Shown one piece after another: positions 7,487 through 29,614 of a stretch of 42,996 nucleotides of DNA. Source of the DNA: a virus; the IMG/VR virus record IMGVR_UViG_3300032282_004968, positions 1 through 42,996 of that record. The stretch is one strand, 5' to 3'. Made by a program: the position numbers and the translations under genes. Position 1 is the stretch's first letter; every line of letters starts with the position of its first letter. Under the pieces are notes generated by a model. That model ran no database searches. It was given only the letters and a program-made list of their open reading frames with translations, and was not told where the DNA came from.

Positions 7487-9184
7487 TCACGCAGCGTGTG
7501 CGCTTTCGCCCTGCTTCCACTTCCTGAAATCCTTGACGACACCATCCCGGAACCTCTTGTCCTTCATGGCGGTCGAGAAGGTCACCTCTTTGAACCGATC
7601 TCGGTTTTCGGGATTTGGGTTGCGGACCTTCTTCTTGCCGTCATCCCACTTGGTCTTCATATACTTGTCGAAACCCGAAAACTCTTCCTTCTTTTTGTCC
7701 TTCTTGGCCTTCTCAGCGGCGGCTTTAGCCTCTTCAGCTTCCCGTATCGGGCGGTTCACGGCCGCGATATCCAAGAGCTTGGGCACGTCAGATTTCGCCA
7801 AAGGGGATGACCCAGATGTCCAAGGATGGGTGGTATCCCAATCGAATCCCAAATCGAAAGAGATGCCGCGACCTTTCGAATAAAGGTTCTTGCCCACCTC
7901 GGCGCTCCAAGACGGAGAGCCATCAGCCTTAATCGCCGCGACGGCCTTCTTCTGTTCAGGGTAATACATGCCAATTACATTGTCCTTGGACTTGTAGATG
8001 ACAGCATCCTGCTTGAAGTGGTCCCCGAGCTTGTGCAAATCCTCAAAGGATATCTCAGGCACCATGTAAGACCTCTCGGTGTGGGTCTTACCTTTCTTGT
8101 CCTTCCACTTGCCCTGCACTGGATACAGTTTCTTGTATCCCATGTCCGCAAGCATACGGATCAGTTCGCCGCTGCTATCCTGATTTTCGGATTTCGAGGA
8201 GTCCCCTCGGTACGGGGACAAAACCCCGAAGGACTTACCCAAACCCATCAATGCTTCGACGTTCTTCAAACGAAGCTCGTCTGCCTGACGGTCCAAGCTT
8301 GCCTGATGATACGTGGTCTGCGGCAGGAAAGACCAAGCAGCCATGAGACGCCGATGGTGTTCGGCCGCAGGCTTGATGCTAGGATCTTCCGAGTCCAAAA
8401 CTAGCCGGCTCAGGGTCGAAGCACCTTCGCTACCGGGATGCTTCAAAATCTCAGTCGGTGTCGGAGGCGCTCTCCGTACAGCGGAGAGAACGTCACCGTC
8501 ACCATGGATCTCCGCAATGTCGTGCCCCACGTCCGATATATTTGTAGGCGCACCAGACTCCGCAAACTCGCGTGTCTCACGCTTTCGCGGATTCTTGAAG
8601 AAGTGACCTTCGGCGGATGGCGCTGACCCCCCTCGCATCGAACCTGAATAGCCTATGAGGGCCTTACGACTATCGGGTACGGCTTTTGGGCGGGACGCCT
8701 GCCTGTCGAATCCCTCGTCAAGTACCTGCTGAAGAAGATAGATGTTTGACTCATGGGCATTTGCTGTTGCCATGAGCCAATCGTCCAACCCAATGGGCAT
8801 GGGGGAACGTTCTGGCCAGACATCAAACACGAAAGACAGGGCCTTCTGAAGCTCCTGTTCAGACAGAAGCCCCCGTCGAACCATGTCTTCTTCGGCGTGC
8901 CACCGCTCGATCATGTCATTGATCAAAGTCAGCGAGACTTCCAAGTCCACAGCGGGCACACCAAAGTAGCCCACCAGTTTCTCGCCGATGGCGTCAATCT
9001 CAGCCTGCACGGAACCGTACAGACGCTCAAATAGCAGATGATTACCGTAGTAATTCGGGCCACGGGCCTGCCAATGACTCGTCTGGTAGCTAAGAGCTTG
9101 TGCCCGCAAAATCGCCAAGACGATGCGGAGCATCGGCAGGACTTCTTCGCGGATCGAAGCGTCAAGGTAGGCTTTTCGTTTCAT
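7487..9184 (-). CDS. Protein with N-terminal Dps/ferritin-like domain
   Basis: 565-residue protein. Residues about 10-170 resemble the Dps/ferritin-like four-helix bundle: 'SYQTSHWQARGPN', then a second histidine in 'NHLLFERLY', then 'EIDAIGEKL', in the order of the Dps ferroxidase motif (HW..KGP, H..F..LY, D...E). A closing helix contains 'NAHESNIYLLQQ'. The middle is a low-complexity linker. The C-terminal half holds a separate alpha/beta segment and then a highly charged Lys/Glu region (EEAKAAAEKAKKDKKKEE). ATG at 9184 is chosen because GGGGA lies 5 bases upstream; the in-frame TTG further up lacks a site. Dps proteins bind DNA and store iron; fusion to a long tail in a virion-gene neighbourhood suggests a DNA-packing or virion role, which is inference. 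Confidence 0.6.
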   Translation of the reverse strand: MKRKAYLDASIREEVLPMLRIVLAILRAQALSYQTSHWQARGPNYYGNHLLFERLYGSVQAEIDAIGEKLVGYFGVPAVDLEVSLTLINDMIERWHAEEDMVRRGLLSEQELQKALSFVFDVWPERSPMPIGLDDWLMATANAHESNIYLLQQVLDEGFDRQASRPKAVPDSRKALIGYSGSMRGGSAPSAEGHFFKNPRKRETREFAESGAPTNISDVGHDIAEIHGDGDVLSAVRRAPPTPTEILKHPGSEGASTLSRLVLDSEDPSIKPAAEHHRRLMAAWSFLPQTTYHQASLDRQADELRLKNVEALMGLGKSFGVLSPYRGDSSKSENQDSSGELIRMLADMGYKKLYPVQGKWKDKKGKTHTERSYMVPEISFEDLHKLGDHFKQDAVIYKSKDNVIGMYYPEQKKAVAAIKADGSPSWSAEVGKNLYSKGRGISFDLGFDWDTTHPWTSGSSPLAKSDVPKLLDIAAVNRPIREAEEAKAAAEKAKKDKKKEEFSGFDKYMKTKWDDGKKKVRNPNPENRDRFKEVTFSTAMKDKRFRDGVVKDFRKWKQGESAHAA

Positions 9185-9196
9185 ATCTGTCCCCAA

Positions 9197-18616: not shown

Positions 18617-19582
18617 CTACACTTTCTCCAGATAAAGCAGCACCCGTTCTCGCACATATTCGGGCAAGTCCGGCATAGCCCTGACTGCATCCGAAAGTGT
18701 GTGTCCATGCCCAATGGGCACCAAGGCGTCTCGAATATGCTCCACAAACGATGCCATCTCTTCTTGCTGCCGTACTTGACGATCCCTGCCCGTTAAGTCA
18801 AATACTTCTTCGGGAGGTGGCACCCTAATCCGGACGGTCTTGATCTCCAAAGGCTTGCCCCGCTCCGCTGTGATCAACACGCAAGCGGGCTGACGGCTCA
18901 GGTCATCCTGAGACAATGTGCCCCGAGTCAAACTGCCGACGTTCACGAACGTCTTGCCCCCCATGTGTTCGACACCTTGGTCTTTATGCCAGTGTCCAAA
19001 CATGAAGCAATCCGGGGCTGTGCCCAGCAAGTCCGCGTATTTGACGATGTCCTCACCCTCGAACATCGTGCCACCTTGCTTCGATGCGAGCACATGAGCG
19101 GCACAAATCAGGAAGTCTTCATCGCCACGCTTTATTCCCGTGAACCGGGTCATATCGTATGACGTTCCGTGATACGGAACACCGACGACACGGACCTTTA
19201 CGCCATCTTGAACGAAGGTGGCCTCATGTTGGTCATACAACGGGCGAAAGATCCCGGCTGCATACAAGACCCCAAGAGGCTGTTGGGGCAGGAATGAGTA
19301 GTCACCGTAGATGCAATCGTGATTCCCCGGCACGCAATAAATCGGGCACGGGTAATTCGCGTGATGCTCTGCCGTGCGACGAACGAGTTCATGCGAATTT
19401 CGAGACGGGGCTTTCACATGAAAGAAGTCCCCGCCATCGATGATCGCATGGGCGTTGACCTTGCGGGCATAATCCCGCACTCGACTGAGTTTGTCGAATA
19501 CGGTGCTCGCCCAATCGTCCGTGCGTGACGCGGGTGGACGGTCGGACAGATGCACGTCAGTTCGCCATACCAGCCGGATCAT
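18617..19582 (-). CDS. Mre11/SbcD-like double-strand break nuclease
   Basis: 321-residue calcineurin-type metallophosphoesterase. The five metal motifs are present: D9-x-H11 (TDVHLSD), GGDFFH (50-55), GNHD (86-89), H163 in 'AAHVLA', and GHWH (196-199). This is the nuclease partner of Rad50, equivalent to phage T4 gp47. The C-terminal ~70 residues form the capping/Rad50-binding region. The ATG overlaps the methyltransferase TAA (TAATG). The stop is TAG. Partners are the two separate Rad50-like halves, one on each side of this gene (20915-22084 and 15591-16232). Confidence 0.9.
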   Translation of the reverse strand: MIRLVWRTDVHLSDRPPASRTDDWASTVFDKLSRVRDYARKVNAHAIIDGGDFFHVKAPSRNSHELVRRTAEHHANYPCPIYCVPGNHDCIYGDYSFLPQQPLGVLYAAGIFRPLYDQHEATFVQDGVKVRVVGVPYHGTSYDMTRFTGIKRGDEDFLICAAHVLASKQGGTMFEGEDIVKYADLLGTAPDCFMFGHWHKDQGVEHMGGKTFVNVGSLTRGTLSQDDLSRQPACVLITAERGKPLEIKTVRIRVPPPEEVFDLTGRDRQVRQQEEMASFVEHIRDALVPIGHGHTLSDAVRAMPDLPEYVRERVLLYLEKV

Positions 19583-20826
19583 TATCCCTCATCGTTACCA
19601 AATAGATCGAACACGGAATCCGATTCTGAGGATTCGGATTCCCCCGATTCCTCAGAATCGGGAGGGCTATCACCAAGAATCCTAGACTCAGCCAACTTCG
19701 CGTATTCGGGGTTCAGTTCACAACCCACAAAGTTACGTCCAAGACGCAGGGATACAGCCCCCGTAGTGCCTGATCCCGTGAAGGGGTCAAGAACTAAACA
19801 GGGGACGGGTTTATGCTCGGGACACTTGCAGGTAGGTTCCCACGATTCCGATACAAATGCCCCTGGAAAAAACCGACCCCCTCGGAGGACTAGACCATCA
19901 GGTCTTCCCGGATTGTATGTGTTATTGCGTCCAACGATGCCCGGACCCCGCCCCACCACACGCCCCCACGGTGCCCCGCACGAAGGGCAACAGCCGATTT
20001 CGCTACTGCCTGCGAGGACCATTGGCTCTACCAGCTTCTCGGGGAAAGTAGCAAAGTGAGCACCCGTGTAGGGTTTAACCTTAATGGACCAAACCGAACG
20101 ACGGTTTCTACGGTCTCCCACCAAAGTATCATGCTGCGAGAAACCAGCCGAAGTGCCACCAAACACACCTTTGGCCGCGTTTTTTGCTGTTTTAGAGTCG
20201 CTTGCTTTAACCAAAGCACCCGCGCAATTAGCGGGTTCCATGATTGCCGTCGAGTCAAAGTAATAGCGGCTACTCTTAGATAGAAGAAAGATATACTCGT
20301 GGGCTTTGGTACAGCGATCCGTCATGCTTTCGGGCATTGGATTCGGCTTGTGCCAAATAATATCCTGCCGCAGCCACCAACCGTCTGCTTGAAGGGCTAA
20401 AGCGACACGCCAAGGGATGCCAACAAGGTCTTTGGGCTTGAGCCCGGTGGACTTTCGCCCACGCCCGATGCCCGTGGCACCATGCAGCGACTTGACGTGC
20501 TTCCCTCCGCTGGAGCCGCCCCACTTGTCATCGTTGGCGTAGGAGTCACCCAGGTTCAGCCACAGCGTCCCGTCGTCCCGCAGCACGCGGCGAACCTCGC
20601 CAAACACCTCGACCATCTTGGCGATGTATTCATCTGGCGTTTGCTCAAGCCCGATCTGCCCGTCATGTCCATAATCGCGTAGCCCCCAATAAGGCGGGCT
20701 CGTGATGCACGTCTGAACTGAGTTTTCCGGTATTGACTTCAAGGACTCGATACAATCCCCGATGTAAATTGTCGCGGAGTTTCGAGAGTCACCAAAGCCG
20801 GGAGTCAGGATGATCTTGTCGCTCAA
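19582..20826 (-). CDS. Site-specific DNA methyltransferase (adenine-N6 or cytosine-N4)
   Basis: 414-residue beta-class amino-methyltransferase. Motif IV is TSPPYWG (42-48) and the AdoMet-binding motif I is DPFTGSGTTG (347-356), in beta-class order. 'SPPYWGLRDYG' is common in solitary phage and type II enzymes. A zinc-ribbon-like insert lies before motif I: CPSC (280-283) with CKC (333-335). The last ~25 residues are a Ser/Glu/Asp repeat encoded by a long hairpin. The start is TTG 20826 with AGGA six bases upstream. No restriction endonuclease gene is adjacent, so it probably protects phage DNA or modulates expression. N4 versus N6 specificity cannot be told from sequence. Confidence 0.85.
   Translation of the reverse strand: MSDKIILTPGFGDSRNSATIYIGDCIESLKSIPENSVQTCITSPPYWGLRDYGHDGQIGLEQTPDEYIAKMVEVFGEVRRVLRDDGTLWLNLGDSYANDDKWGGSSGGKHVKSLHGATGIGRGRKSTGLKPKDLVGIPWRVALALQADGWWLRQDIIWHKPNPMPESMTDRCTKAHEYIFLLSKSSRYYFDSTAIMEPANCAGALVKASDSKTAKNAAKGVFGGTSAGFSQHDTLVGDRRNRRSVWSIKVKPYTGAHFATFPEKLVEPMVLAGSSEIGCCPSCGAPWGRVVGRGPGIVGRNNTYNPGRPDGLVLRGGRFFPGAFVSESWEPTCKCPEHKPVPCLVLDPFTGSGTTGAVSLRLGRNFVGCELNPEYAKLAESRILGDSPPDSEESGESESSESDSVFDLFGNDEG
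19621..19660. repeat. 17-bp inverted repeat inside the methyltransferase tail
   Basis: 19621-19637 pairs with 19644-19660 with a single mismatch and a 6-base loop. It lies in the last codons of the methyltransferase, within the Ser/Glu-rich repeat. The mRNA would fold into a very stable stem just before the Mre11 start at 19582. Confidence 0.75.
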
Positions 20827-26101: not shown

Positions 26102-29100
26102 CTATTCAGGTCTAAAAACGAACCCCCCAGCAAGGCTAGATCGCACTATCCTTGCTGCGAGCAGGGTCTTTCGATGTTCAGCGGAATCGTTCTGAACGGC
26201 CTTCGAAATTGCCGATGCCTGTCCGACAATGAGCACCCGTTTTTTTGCACGGGTGATTGCTGTGTAGAGCAGATTACGCTGCAATTGCCGACCAAATGTG
26301 GCCAGTAGGGGCAACACGATCACGTCATATTCCTGGCCCTGTGAATTCCAGCCCGAAAACCCATTTTGGATGAACTTGTGAGTGCCCGGTACTTCGACAC
26401 ACATGGACGGTCCCCAAGAGGGGACCACACTCACAATTCGCTCGTGATGATGACGTGCCCGAATCCCCAGCATCGGGATATGCCGCACGGCAATATCCAC
26501 AGGGGCTCCTGTAAATTTACCTTGACGGTAAATGACCGAGGCTTCGCTAGAAGTCAACGGCACCCGTTCGTCATCGGGATATGTCAGACGTGCTCGATTA
26601 GCAAGTCTGGCGGCATCCGGATGGTCGAAGCCAATGCGACTCAGAAAACGGTCGAGACTTCGGCCACGGATCGTGATGTTGTTCTTCATGCGACAACGGG
26701 CGAAGATGCCCTCGTCGAGAAGCATCGCCCGAATTGCGATGTTTGCGTTCTCGGACCAGCATCGTATCCAGATATTATCTACTAGGCTCTCAGTGTCGTC
26801 CCAAACCTCATACTTGGTCATGGACGACAGGAAGTATCCGCGCAAAAAAGACCTGCGAATTGACCGGCTTGAAGCAAGAATTAGTCGTGGGATGCCCTTG
26901 CCGTGTTCTGGGTACATCTCAGGGAAGTGCTGCCACAACCAATGCGTCACATGATTCCCAAACAGGCGAAAGCAATGCGGCTTGTCCAATTCGAGGATCT
27001 GTGGACAGATGCCGAAATGCCTCAAAAAGCCGCTGTTGATCTTGTCCAGGAGAAGGACGACATCGTTTCGACCGCAAGAATACATCCGAGTATGGAGCCA
27101 TGGGCTCATGTTCGTGCTGAATCCACAGCGCCAGAATTTCGAAAAGGCCAGGAGCATTCCGAGAAATTCTGCGAAGTCCTCATCCAAGATCAAAGGGGTC
27201 TTTACACCTGCAACAGGATCAAATTGATGCGGCGGGCGCTCCGCAGATACGGATGGCCCTGGGACCATATACAACCAATCGTTCTTCTTTACCTCTTGAG
27301 CTTCTTTGCGTACATAGCGACCCTGATCGCGGTCCCAAACATCCAATCCATGTTCAGGGGTCACGTAAATCACATAACCACCCTCGGTCTTTACCTTCAA
27401 GAGCGGGCCGGCAGGGTACTCGCTCTTATTGTGATAGGTCTTCAACCCATCAGGCGCGCTGATAGTGCCGTCAGTCGGTAGATGGCGGATCTGATGCAGC
27501 CCACCGTCGTGCCACGTAATTGTGGTCGGATGCACACATTTGTGGATTGTCTGTGCATAGGCCAAACGCAGCATTTTTGCTGCATCCGACATTGAAAAGC
27601 GGACGGTAGCAGAGGGCATTCCGGGAATGCCGAAAATGCTAGCCTCGATTTCTTTCGCGGCGCGGTCGATACGACGAATTGTGCCCACGTCGCCATTGAA
27701 CACGCCTTTCTGATAATCGTTTTTGACAATGATGATGCGGTCACCTTCGCGGACGACCGACCCACCAAGTTTCGTTTCACTCATGCCCGACATCGGTGGG
27801 TTTAGCTGGGAACGAATCCGGTCGTTGAGCGCGGTCACACCTGCCCCCCCTGAATGGCGAGGGGACAGCACTTGAAAGTTCTCCCGCTTCTCGTAGAGCT
27901 TCTGGGAAATACGCAGAATCAAAGACGCGGCTTCTTCTTCCGAAGAAGCCGGAAGAAGAACAAAATCCCGTCCATCGGACTCCGGTGCCGTCCCCCTATG
28001 AACTGCGTGTGCAGCGAGAACAATGCCGCTGGTGCCCTCTTGACGAAACACGCGGTCCAAATGGACATGCGGGAACACCTTGCTCTCGACCAGATCCCCC
28101 AGAACGTCACCGGCACCCACGGAGGGTAGCTGATACGGGTCACCTACAAAAACCAAACGGCAGTCTGGCCGAGTCCCCAACAAGATACGATTGATCATGT
28201 TGAGATCAACCATGGAAGTCTCATCCACGATGAGGATTTCAGCAGGGTGTGGGTTATCAGGACCGAAGCCCCAACTGGCCGTGTCTGCCGATGACTTCTT
28301 GCCATCGCCATCCCCAAGAAAGCCCTCGTAGGCAACCTCGCGATCTTCAGCCTCGTACTTGCCCCGAGCACCGAAAGCGCGATGAATCGTCGAGGCATCG
28401 GCATTCACGACGTTCGAAAGTCTTTTGGCTGCGATACCCGTTGGTGCGGCCAAAAGGAAGCTGATCCCTGCATCTTTGAGCAGCGTGACTACCGCCCTTA
28501 AAGCCGTTGTCTTACCGGCACCCGGCAAACCCGTAATCAAACTCACATTGTCCGTCAATGCGGATAGAGCAGCCCGCAACTGATCTTCCGTCAACATGAC
28601 GCCGGAACCAGCGGACCAGTCCGCCAAAGCCGCCCTCACGACGGTCTTGAGACTTGCATCAGCGTTCACAGCCGCTTCCGTCTGTGGACCGACACGGGCA
28701 AAAAGTTTACGGAAGTCCTTCTTGGACTCCATCTTCAAACGAGCGACCAAAGCCGCTGCAACGGAACACTCGACCTCATACAAATCCGGCTCATATAGGG
28801 CCACCGTGCCCGGGAGGGTCACGCGATCCAGAATCATCTGGTCATCCCGGACAAGATCCTTGACTGCTGCGGCTACCGAAACATCCGTAGCGTTTGGAAT
28901 CAAGGTTAGAACGTTCGACAGGATGTCGTTCATGGAGGCATAGACGTGGCCATCCCCAAATGAATCACCCATCGTGGCCAAGACAGCCCCGCACAAACGC
29001 CCTGGGGAATCCAGCGGAACCCCGAGCTTCATTGCAATTTCATCGGCCTTGCCAAATGTGATGCCGTCTACCTGAACAAGTGCCCATGGATTCTTTGTGA

Positions 29101-29614
29101 CAATGGCTTCAACGTCAGTGGAATATTTCTTCCACACGCGGTCGATCACGGATGCGGGCACACCGGCATCTGCCAGAAATGCCGAGGCGTATAGATGCGC
29201 CTTGGCAGCCTTCCAGCGTTCTGTGACAAAAGACAATTCAGACGGCAGGGAGTCCGAGTCGAGGACTTCGAGCAAAGCCTTGCCGTTTGCATGATTCGAC
29301 AGAGACATCCTGATTGTCGGACCTACGCCTTGGGCCGACAAAATGTTCAAGATGCGGTCGTCAGTCCAGGTCTTCGGGACAACCGGAGACTTGATGACGG
29401 ACACTTGTCGACCGTACACGGCATGTACGGTGTATGTGCCCTCAAAGCAAACCCACGTTCCCGGGACAATGACCTGTCCCGGGAAATGGCCTTTAGCCGT
29501 GACCGTTGATTTGCCTTCGTCTAGGACGATTTTAGCAATGAAGAAATCAGCGCCGTCGTTGTAAGTGACGGCGCTGACTCTGCCGCTGAAGGTTTCGGTG
29601 TGGGTATCTGCCAT
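26102..29614 (-). CDS. recD: RecD-like helicase interrupted by an intein
   Basis: 1170-residue precursor; removing the intein leaves a 772-residue superfamily 1B helicase of the RecD2 type. The N-terminal ~340 residues are the OB-like and helix-hairpin region. Walker A is GLPGAGKTT (362-370), 'APTGIAAKRL' (390-399) is motif Ia, and Walker B is IVDETSM (462-468). 'VFVGDPYQLPSVG' is motif III, 'VFRQ' is motif IV, and 'TAITRAKKRV' is motif VI. The intein splits the motif 'TIHK|SQGQEYDVIVLPL'. The ATG at 29614 lacks a ribosome site and lies inside a palindrome. It ends in TAG; reading on, the frame reaches a TAA that overlaps the next gene's ATG. The likely role is 5'-3' unwinding in replication or recombination. 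Confidence 0.9.
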   Translation of the reverse strand: MADTHTETFSGRVSAVTYNDGADFFIAKIVLDEGKSTVTAKGHFPGQVIVPGTWVCFEGTYTVHAVYGRQVSVIKSPVVPKTWTDDRILNILSAQGVGPTIRMSLSNHANGKALLEVLDSDSLPSELSFVTERWKAAKAHLYASAFLADAGVPASVIDRVWKKYSTDVEAIVTKNPWALVQVDGITFGKADEIAMKLGVPLDSPGRLCGAVLATMGDSFGDGHVYASMNDILSNVLTLIPNATDVSVAAAVKDLVRDDQMILDRVTLPGTVALYEPDLYEVECSVAAALVARLKMESKKDFRKLFARVGPQTEAAVNADASLKTVVRAALADWSAGSGVMLTEDQLRAALSALTDNVSLITGLPGAGKTTALRAVVTLLKDAGISFLLAAPTGIAAKRLSNVVNADASTIHRAFGARGKYEAEDREVAYEGFLGDGDGKKSSADTASWGFGPDNPHPAEILIVDETSMVDLNMINRILLGTRPDCRLVFVGDPYQLPSVGAGDVLGDLVESKVFPHVHLDRVFRQEGTSGIVLAAHAVHRGTAPESDGRDFVLLPASSEEEAASLILRISQKLYEKRENFQVLSPRHSGGAGVTALNDRIRSQLNPPMSGMSETKLGGSVVREGDRIIIVKNDYQKGVFNGDVGTIRRIDRAAKEIEASIFGIPGMPSATVRFSMSDAAKMLRLAYAQTIHKCVHPTTITWHDGGLHQIRHLPTDGTISAPDGLKTYHNKSEYPAGPLLKVKTEGGYVIYVTPEHGLDVWDRDQGRYVRKEAQEVKKNDWLYMVPGPSVSAERPPHQFDPVAGVKTPLILDEDFAEFLGMLLAFSKFWRCGFSTNMSPWLHTRMYSCGRNDVVLLLDKINSGFLRHFGICPQILELDKPHCFRLFGNHVTHWLWQHFPEMYPEHGKGIPRLILASSRSIRRSFLRGYFLSSMTKYEVWDDTESLVDNIWIRCWSENANIAIRAMLLDEGIFARCRMKNNITIRGRSLDRFLSRIGFDHPDAARLANRARLTYPDDERVPLTSSEASVIYRQGKFTGAPVDIAVRHIPMLGIRARHHHERIVSVVPSWGPSMCVEVPGTHKFIQNGFSGWNSQGQEYDVIVLPLLATFGRQLQRNLLYTAITRAKKRVLIVGQASAISKAVQNDSAEHRKTLLAARIVRSSLAGGFVFRPE
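26345..27538 (-). mobile_element. Intein in the RecD helicase, with degenerate homing endonuclease
   Basis: 398 residues (693-1090 of the precursor) inserted between 'AQTIHK' and 'SQGQEYDV'. It begins with Cys ('CVHPTTITWHDGG'), contains a TxxH block B ('VTPEHGLDV') and ends in 'THKFIQNGFSGWN' before Ser+1. The terminal Asn is present, but the usual penultimate His is Trp. The centre has two remnants of the LAGLIDADG (DOD) endonuclease blocks: 'AEFLGMLLAFSKF' and 'RSFLRGYFLSSMT'. In both, the acidic residues that hold metal are gone. Splicing is probably retained because RecD is likely essential; homing activity is probably lost. Confidence 0.88.

Follow-up and report, generated by a model that had tools for sequence, protein, structure and literature searches.

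An open reading frame (ORF) for a phage RecD helicase is interrupted in motif VI by a long insertion with a degenerate LAGLIDADG domain and a Trp-Asn end. This locus raises the question of whether the insertion is an intein that still excises from the helicase, and why it has been kept.

A RecD2-type helicase interrupted in motif VI

The window analyzed here is the whole 42,996-bp virus record, which also encodes tail sheath, clamp loader, RecA/UvsX, SbcC-like, and metallophosphoesterase proteins and is a fragment of a large phage. Pfam domains OB_YrrC, HHH_RecD2, AAA_30, SH3_13, and UvrD_C_2 were identified in the helicase ORF. It matches the NCBIfam model helicase_RecD2 (4.8e-144), with a whole-protein score of 481 bits, slightly under the cut-off of 500, when the intein is included. 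The extein has the N-terminal OB and HHH region, RecA-like motifs, SH3 insertion, and motif VI of RecD2-type helicases. The RecD gene and the next two genes show synteny with the 485-kb phage LR745208. The RecD of LR745208 (L002:15001-17790) contains a small intein-like insert of ~150 residues (C...VSN/C; slashes mark insertion points or splice junctions) in Walker B (VIDE/CSM), unlike the helicase studied here, whose Walker B is without an insert.

Two other ORFs on the minus strand are of note. Residues 325-417 of the ORF at 7487-9196 match the S-adenosylmethionine lyase family (PF23780, 7e-9), and this protein possibly has an anti-restriction function. The N6/N4 DNA methyltransferase at 19582-20826 contains a long inserted segment rich in Cys (CCPSCG...CKCPEH) that may bind zinc. 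A mini-intein was suspected in this gene from a gapped PHROG match and was ruled out, as the protein is an ordinary N6_N4_Mtase.

The intein divides motif VI as TIHK/SQG, with Ser as the +1 residue. Blocks A, B, F, and G lie between conserved extein halves, and the insert is missing in relatives. The first-pass annotation had placed a 398-residue intein in this highly conserved RecD motif and had proposed an intein profile search as a check. Its coordinates proved exact (Table 1), and the search found Pfam Intein_splicing (E = 5.3e-6, under the curated cut-off). The AlphaFold2 model of the intein has a pLDDT of 84.6, with 94-98 for residues 1-90 and 93-98 for residues 361-398. Its best PDB matches are the TliVMA (E = 1.3e-20) and PhoVMA inteins, which are also the nearest solved structures by sequence; I-DmoI was matched as well.

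Table 1. Positions of the helicase gene and intein features in the window.
Feature	Position	Strand	Remarks
RecD2-type SF1B helicase precursor ORF	26102..29614	-	1170 aa; 772 aa without intein
N-extein, ending ...AYAQTIHK	27539..29614	-	unbroken alignment to inteinless phage RecDs
Intein, Cys1...Trp397-Asn398, 398 aa	26345..27538	-	ORF residues 693-1090
N-terminal splicing (HINT) half, residues 1-93	27260..27538	-	family alignment
Cys1	27536..27538	-	
Block B Thr60	27359..27361	-	
Block B His63	27350..27352	-	
Degenerate LAGLIDADG endonuclease domain, residues 114-354	26477..27199	-	alignment, branch lengths, structural matches
Block C (LAGLIDADG helix 1), about residues 123-134	27134..27175	-	catalytic Asp replaced by Phe132 (27143..27145)
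Block E (LAGLIDADG helix 2), residues 231-241	26816..26848	-	EDG replaced by LSS; Ser238 at 26825..26827
C-terminal splicing half, residues 366-398	26345..26443	-	
Block F Cys380 (F:4)	26399..26401	-	
Block F His387 (F:13)	26378..26380	-	
Block G Trp397	26348..26350	-	
Block G Asn398	26345..26347	-	
C-extein, starting Ser+1-Gln-Gly, motif VI second half	26105..26344	-	

Empty alleles and the phage intein family

When viral contigs were searched with the helicase in its spliced form, 54 relatives were retrieved, nearly all of which carry HKSQG or a close variant without interruption, and a second helicase scan that avoided the insertion site added further relatives. The closest RecDs (L003, L006, L008, and L011) are empty at motif VI. 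The closest relatives, which are up to 65% identical, usually have an empty allele at exactly this position. In a tree built from 99 RecD-like helicases, the presence of the motif VI intein changed at least 14 times, which fits a horizontally spreading element. The earlier suggestion that the intein persists because its excision is impossible finds no support in these empty alleles and repeated changes.

Other catalytic motifs of phage RecDs also carry inteins. Inteins ending in HN interrupt Walker A (GK/T) in L035, L039, and L040 (duplicates L049, L121, and L127), giving at least three intein sites in phage RecDs, namely Walker A, Walker B, and motif VI. The L177 helicase ORF (1532 aa) apparently contains two inteins, one before SMVD in the Walker B region and the other at motif VI.

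The intein alone as query retrieved no relatives among viral contigs or phages. Relatives were reached via the helicase, the junction pattern AYxxT[IV]HK/C, the Trp-Asn end pattern, and a family profile search. After removal of duplicates, the family has 32 members including the RecD intein (~31 relatives), nearly all from phages and one from a bacterial genome bin. The family inteins reside in RecD-, Dda-, and UvrD-like phage helicases (SF1), nearly all at motif VI, and range in length from 361 to 453 residues, so that the RecD intein with 398 residues is unreduced. Cys1, the block B His, Cys F:4, and the C-terminal Asn are common to the whole family. Since the endonucleases of the family are mostly intact, its members are presumably able to splice; a splicing experiment on the RecD intein or any other family member was not found in the literature searched. 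In the family tree the RecD intein occupies a long branch with weak supports. Two same-site inteins with the canonical Asp F:4 and a His-Asn end (L144 and L164) stand apart from the family.

The penultimate tryptophan

A penultimate His is regarded as assisting, almost universally, the step of splicing that is usually the slowest. The Trp397 of the RecD intein had been noted as unusual, and this is true among characterized inteins, where Trp is rare; no description of a Trp-penultimate intein was found in the literature searched. In its own family, however, Trp is the commonest penultimate residue (18 of 32 members), followed by Phe (4), Ser (3), Gly (2), Cys (2), Tyr (1), Thr (1), and His (1). 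This frequency is not an artefact of the Trp-based search, because Trp is also found in 7 of the 10 members retrieved through the N-terminal junction alone. Judging from the aligned members, a Trp-Asn ending characterizes the family rather than the RecD intein alone. As most of the 18 Trp members have an intact endonuclease, Trp is not linked to the loss of homing. Because Trp also occurs beside intact endonucleases, the idea that it arises through decay was rejected.

The suggestion that a different helper residue may be needed for Asn cyclization is reasonable, and a candidate is the His at F:13, present in 15 of the 18 Trp members vs 1 of the 14 others (Fisher P = 4e-5, with members not independent of descent). 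The three remaining Trp members (L185, L198, and L200) have Ser at F:13, so this His is not the whole answer for the family. For the RecD intein, His387 is the likeliest helper residue, and Trp397 might, for example, pack against the scissile bond. As the family is almost never His-penultimate, alternative drivers of Asn cyclization become testable by a one-residue swap.

Loss of the homing endonuclease

The endonuclease had been described as dead, and the present results bear this out: both catalytic motifs are destroyed, no LAGLIDADG model matches anywhere in the window, and the endonuclease branch is long. Active enzymes have an acidic residue in each LAGLIDADG helix, where the RecD intein has Phe132 and Ser238. 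Block C reads AEFLGMLLAFSK in the RecD intein vs AEFLGLMVADGT in active relatives, with ADG changed to AFS. Block E reads FLRGYFLSSMT vs FLRGLFEDGTV in active relatives. The block E segment given earlier as YFLSSMT has indeed lost its acids, but it aligns to LFEDGT, so that Glu-Asp-Gly is replaced by Leu-Ser-Ser. The block C Asp is present in all family members except the RecD intein and L217, and only the RecD intein has lost both catalytic acids together. The LAGLIDADG_3 cut-off was passed by 3 of the 3 ADG-bearing relatives tested; the RecD intein and L217 gave no match. In the domain tree, the endonuclease end branch of the RecD intein is 4.04 vs a median of 0.64 (~6 times).

L217 (4001-5194) is a second member with a dead endonuclease. 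It has AFG in block C, lies at a UvrD-type site (TIHK/SKG), and ends in Cys-Asn, and its endonuclease end branch is 3.81. The same block C change from Asp to Phe occurs in L217 and in the RecD intein. The two are placed apart in the splicing-domain tree with modest supports, and from these separate positions the two endonuclease losses look independent. Comparison of two separate dead-endonuclease members with living same-site relatives allows a test of fold retention after homing loss. In L198, L211, and L168, the block E Asp is changed to Asn (FENG/FEND) with block C intact; these are possibly nicking or early-decay endonucleases.

Splicing activity and alternative explanations

We favor, with a probability of about 0.85, a class-1-type (Cys1) intein that probably still excises from RecD and has lost homing. 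All splicing residues expected from the family alignment are present, the 398-codon frame and the C-extein are open, and the helicase motifs are intact on both sides. In shuffled endonuclease DNA ~10 stops are expected, and none is observed. These observations argue against a decay of the whole intein, in which splicing would be slow or lost and RecD would be non-functional or dispensable in the phage. Such decay is unlikely, although G:6 is without His and the splicing-domain end branch of the RecD intein is 1.56 vs a median of 0.69 (~2 times, domain tree), from which some decay of splicing is conceivable. Still less credible is the earlier proposal that splicing is a regulatory switch for RecD activity. 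The insertion splits an active-centre motif, and the penultimate residue tuned the splicing of one mycobacteriophage intein (PMC5050341), but no conditional feature was seen and the same Trp occurs in members with intact endonucleases, which look like ordinary mobile elements. The possibility that a native helicase domain, rather than an intein, accounts for the segment can practically be dismissed. The first-pass annotation had called for a comparison with inteinless relatives and would have given up the intein if relatives carried the segment as a helicase domain; instead, dozens of relatives are without the segment and join HK straight to SQG, and the structure and profile matches are inteins.

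A further reading concerns the endonuclease domain itself, which may have been repurposed as a structural or regulatory splicing partner or as a DNA-binding accessory. This would explain a kept core and a lost catalytic surface. In the RecD intein, 54 of 61 conserved core columns of the endonuclease stay hydrophobic (89%) vs 4 of 21 conserved polar residues kept (19%), and L217 shows the same pattern, which suggests a retained scaffold. Neutral drift was simulated from active relatives until the mean identity was equal, and both extremes were attained in ~0.4% of runs for the RecD intein (joint P ~0.004) and in 0 of 164 runs for L217; the simulation is crude, without indels or realistic codon bias. 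The AlphaFold2 model retains the LAGLIDADG fold, matching TliVMA/PhoVMA and I-DmoI, with pLDDT of 48-70 in parts of the domain. A dependence of splicing on the endonuclease scaffold has been proposed for other inteins (PMC8966425). Fold retention may nevertheless be partly incidental, since read-through in the middle of the ORF permits only in-frame changes, and the net charge (+5 vs mostly +7 to +22 in the family) speaks against a DNA-binding accessory. These data are compatible with the dead domain serving a structural role but do not prove it, and we regard repurposing as a tentative explanation.

For the favored class-1-type intein, splicing would begin with an acyl shift at Cys1 assisted by Thr60 and His63, followed by transfer to Ser+1, Cys1 and Ser+1 being the putative nucleophiles of the standard four-step pathway. 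Asn398 cyclization would be aided by His387, with Cys380 in place of the usual Asp, and a final acyl shift would complete splicing and yield an active helicase. The intein would be kept because lost splicing leaves motif VI split, whereas its precise removal requires an empty allele to recombine with. The dead endonuclease perhaps keeps its fold as a support for the splicing domain. It is possible, but rather doubtful, that the family represents a lineage in which replacement of the penultimate His is the rule, with Trp standing in its place, an unvarying Cys at F:4, and a His at F:13 that goes along with Trp; Asn cyclization would then be driven by a non-canonical active-site set, and the endonuclease of at least two members would be only a structural scaffold needed by the splicing domain.

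Comparison with known inteins

The RecD intein has the class 1 residues Cys1, block B Thr60 and His63, Asn398, and Ser+1, with Trp397 in place of the canonical penultimate His (G:6). Class 2 (KlbA type, Ala at position 1) was ruled out by Cys1. Class 3 inteins have Trp-Cys-Thr at B:12, F:4, and G:5 and are without a Cys1 or Ser1 N-terminal nucleophile. Class 3 was considered for Cys F:4 and ruled out, as the WCT triplet is missing and Cys1 is retained. The class 3 inteins MchDnaB1 and Bethlehem DnaB are similar to the RecD intein in Cys F:4 and in being phage-linked; unlike them, the RecD intein has Cys1, Leu at B:12, and Gly at G:5.

Trp397 does not disqualify the RecD intein from class 1, because a residue other than His occupies G:6 in ~5% of functional inteins (PMC4031507). 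Mycobacteriophage class 1 inteins have Gly, Lys, or Ser at this position, and the Bethlehem RDF intein with its native Gly splices well (PMC5050341). They resemble the RecD intein in being phage-borne and non-His at G:6 but differ in having these residues rather than Trp, in their host proteins, and in that some of their endonucleases are active. Among solved structures, TliVMA (PDB 7QSS) is the best match across the splicing and endonuclease domains, but it is archaeal and its endonuclease is presumed active. The endonuclease of PhoVMA (Pyrococcus horikoshii V-ATPase, PDB 7QST) is degenerate yet foldable (PMC8966425). PhoVMA and the RecD intein thus both have a LAGLIDADG domain with both catalytic motifs degenerate and the fold kept, whereas PhoVMA is archaeal, interrupts VMA instead of a phage helicase, and shares ~15% identity with the RecD intein in the structural alignment.
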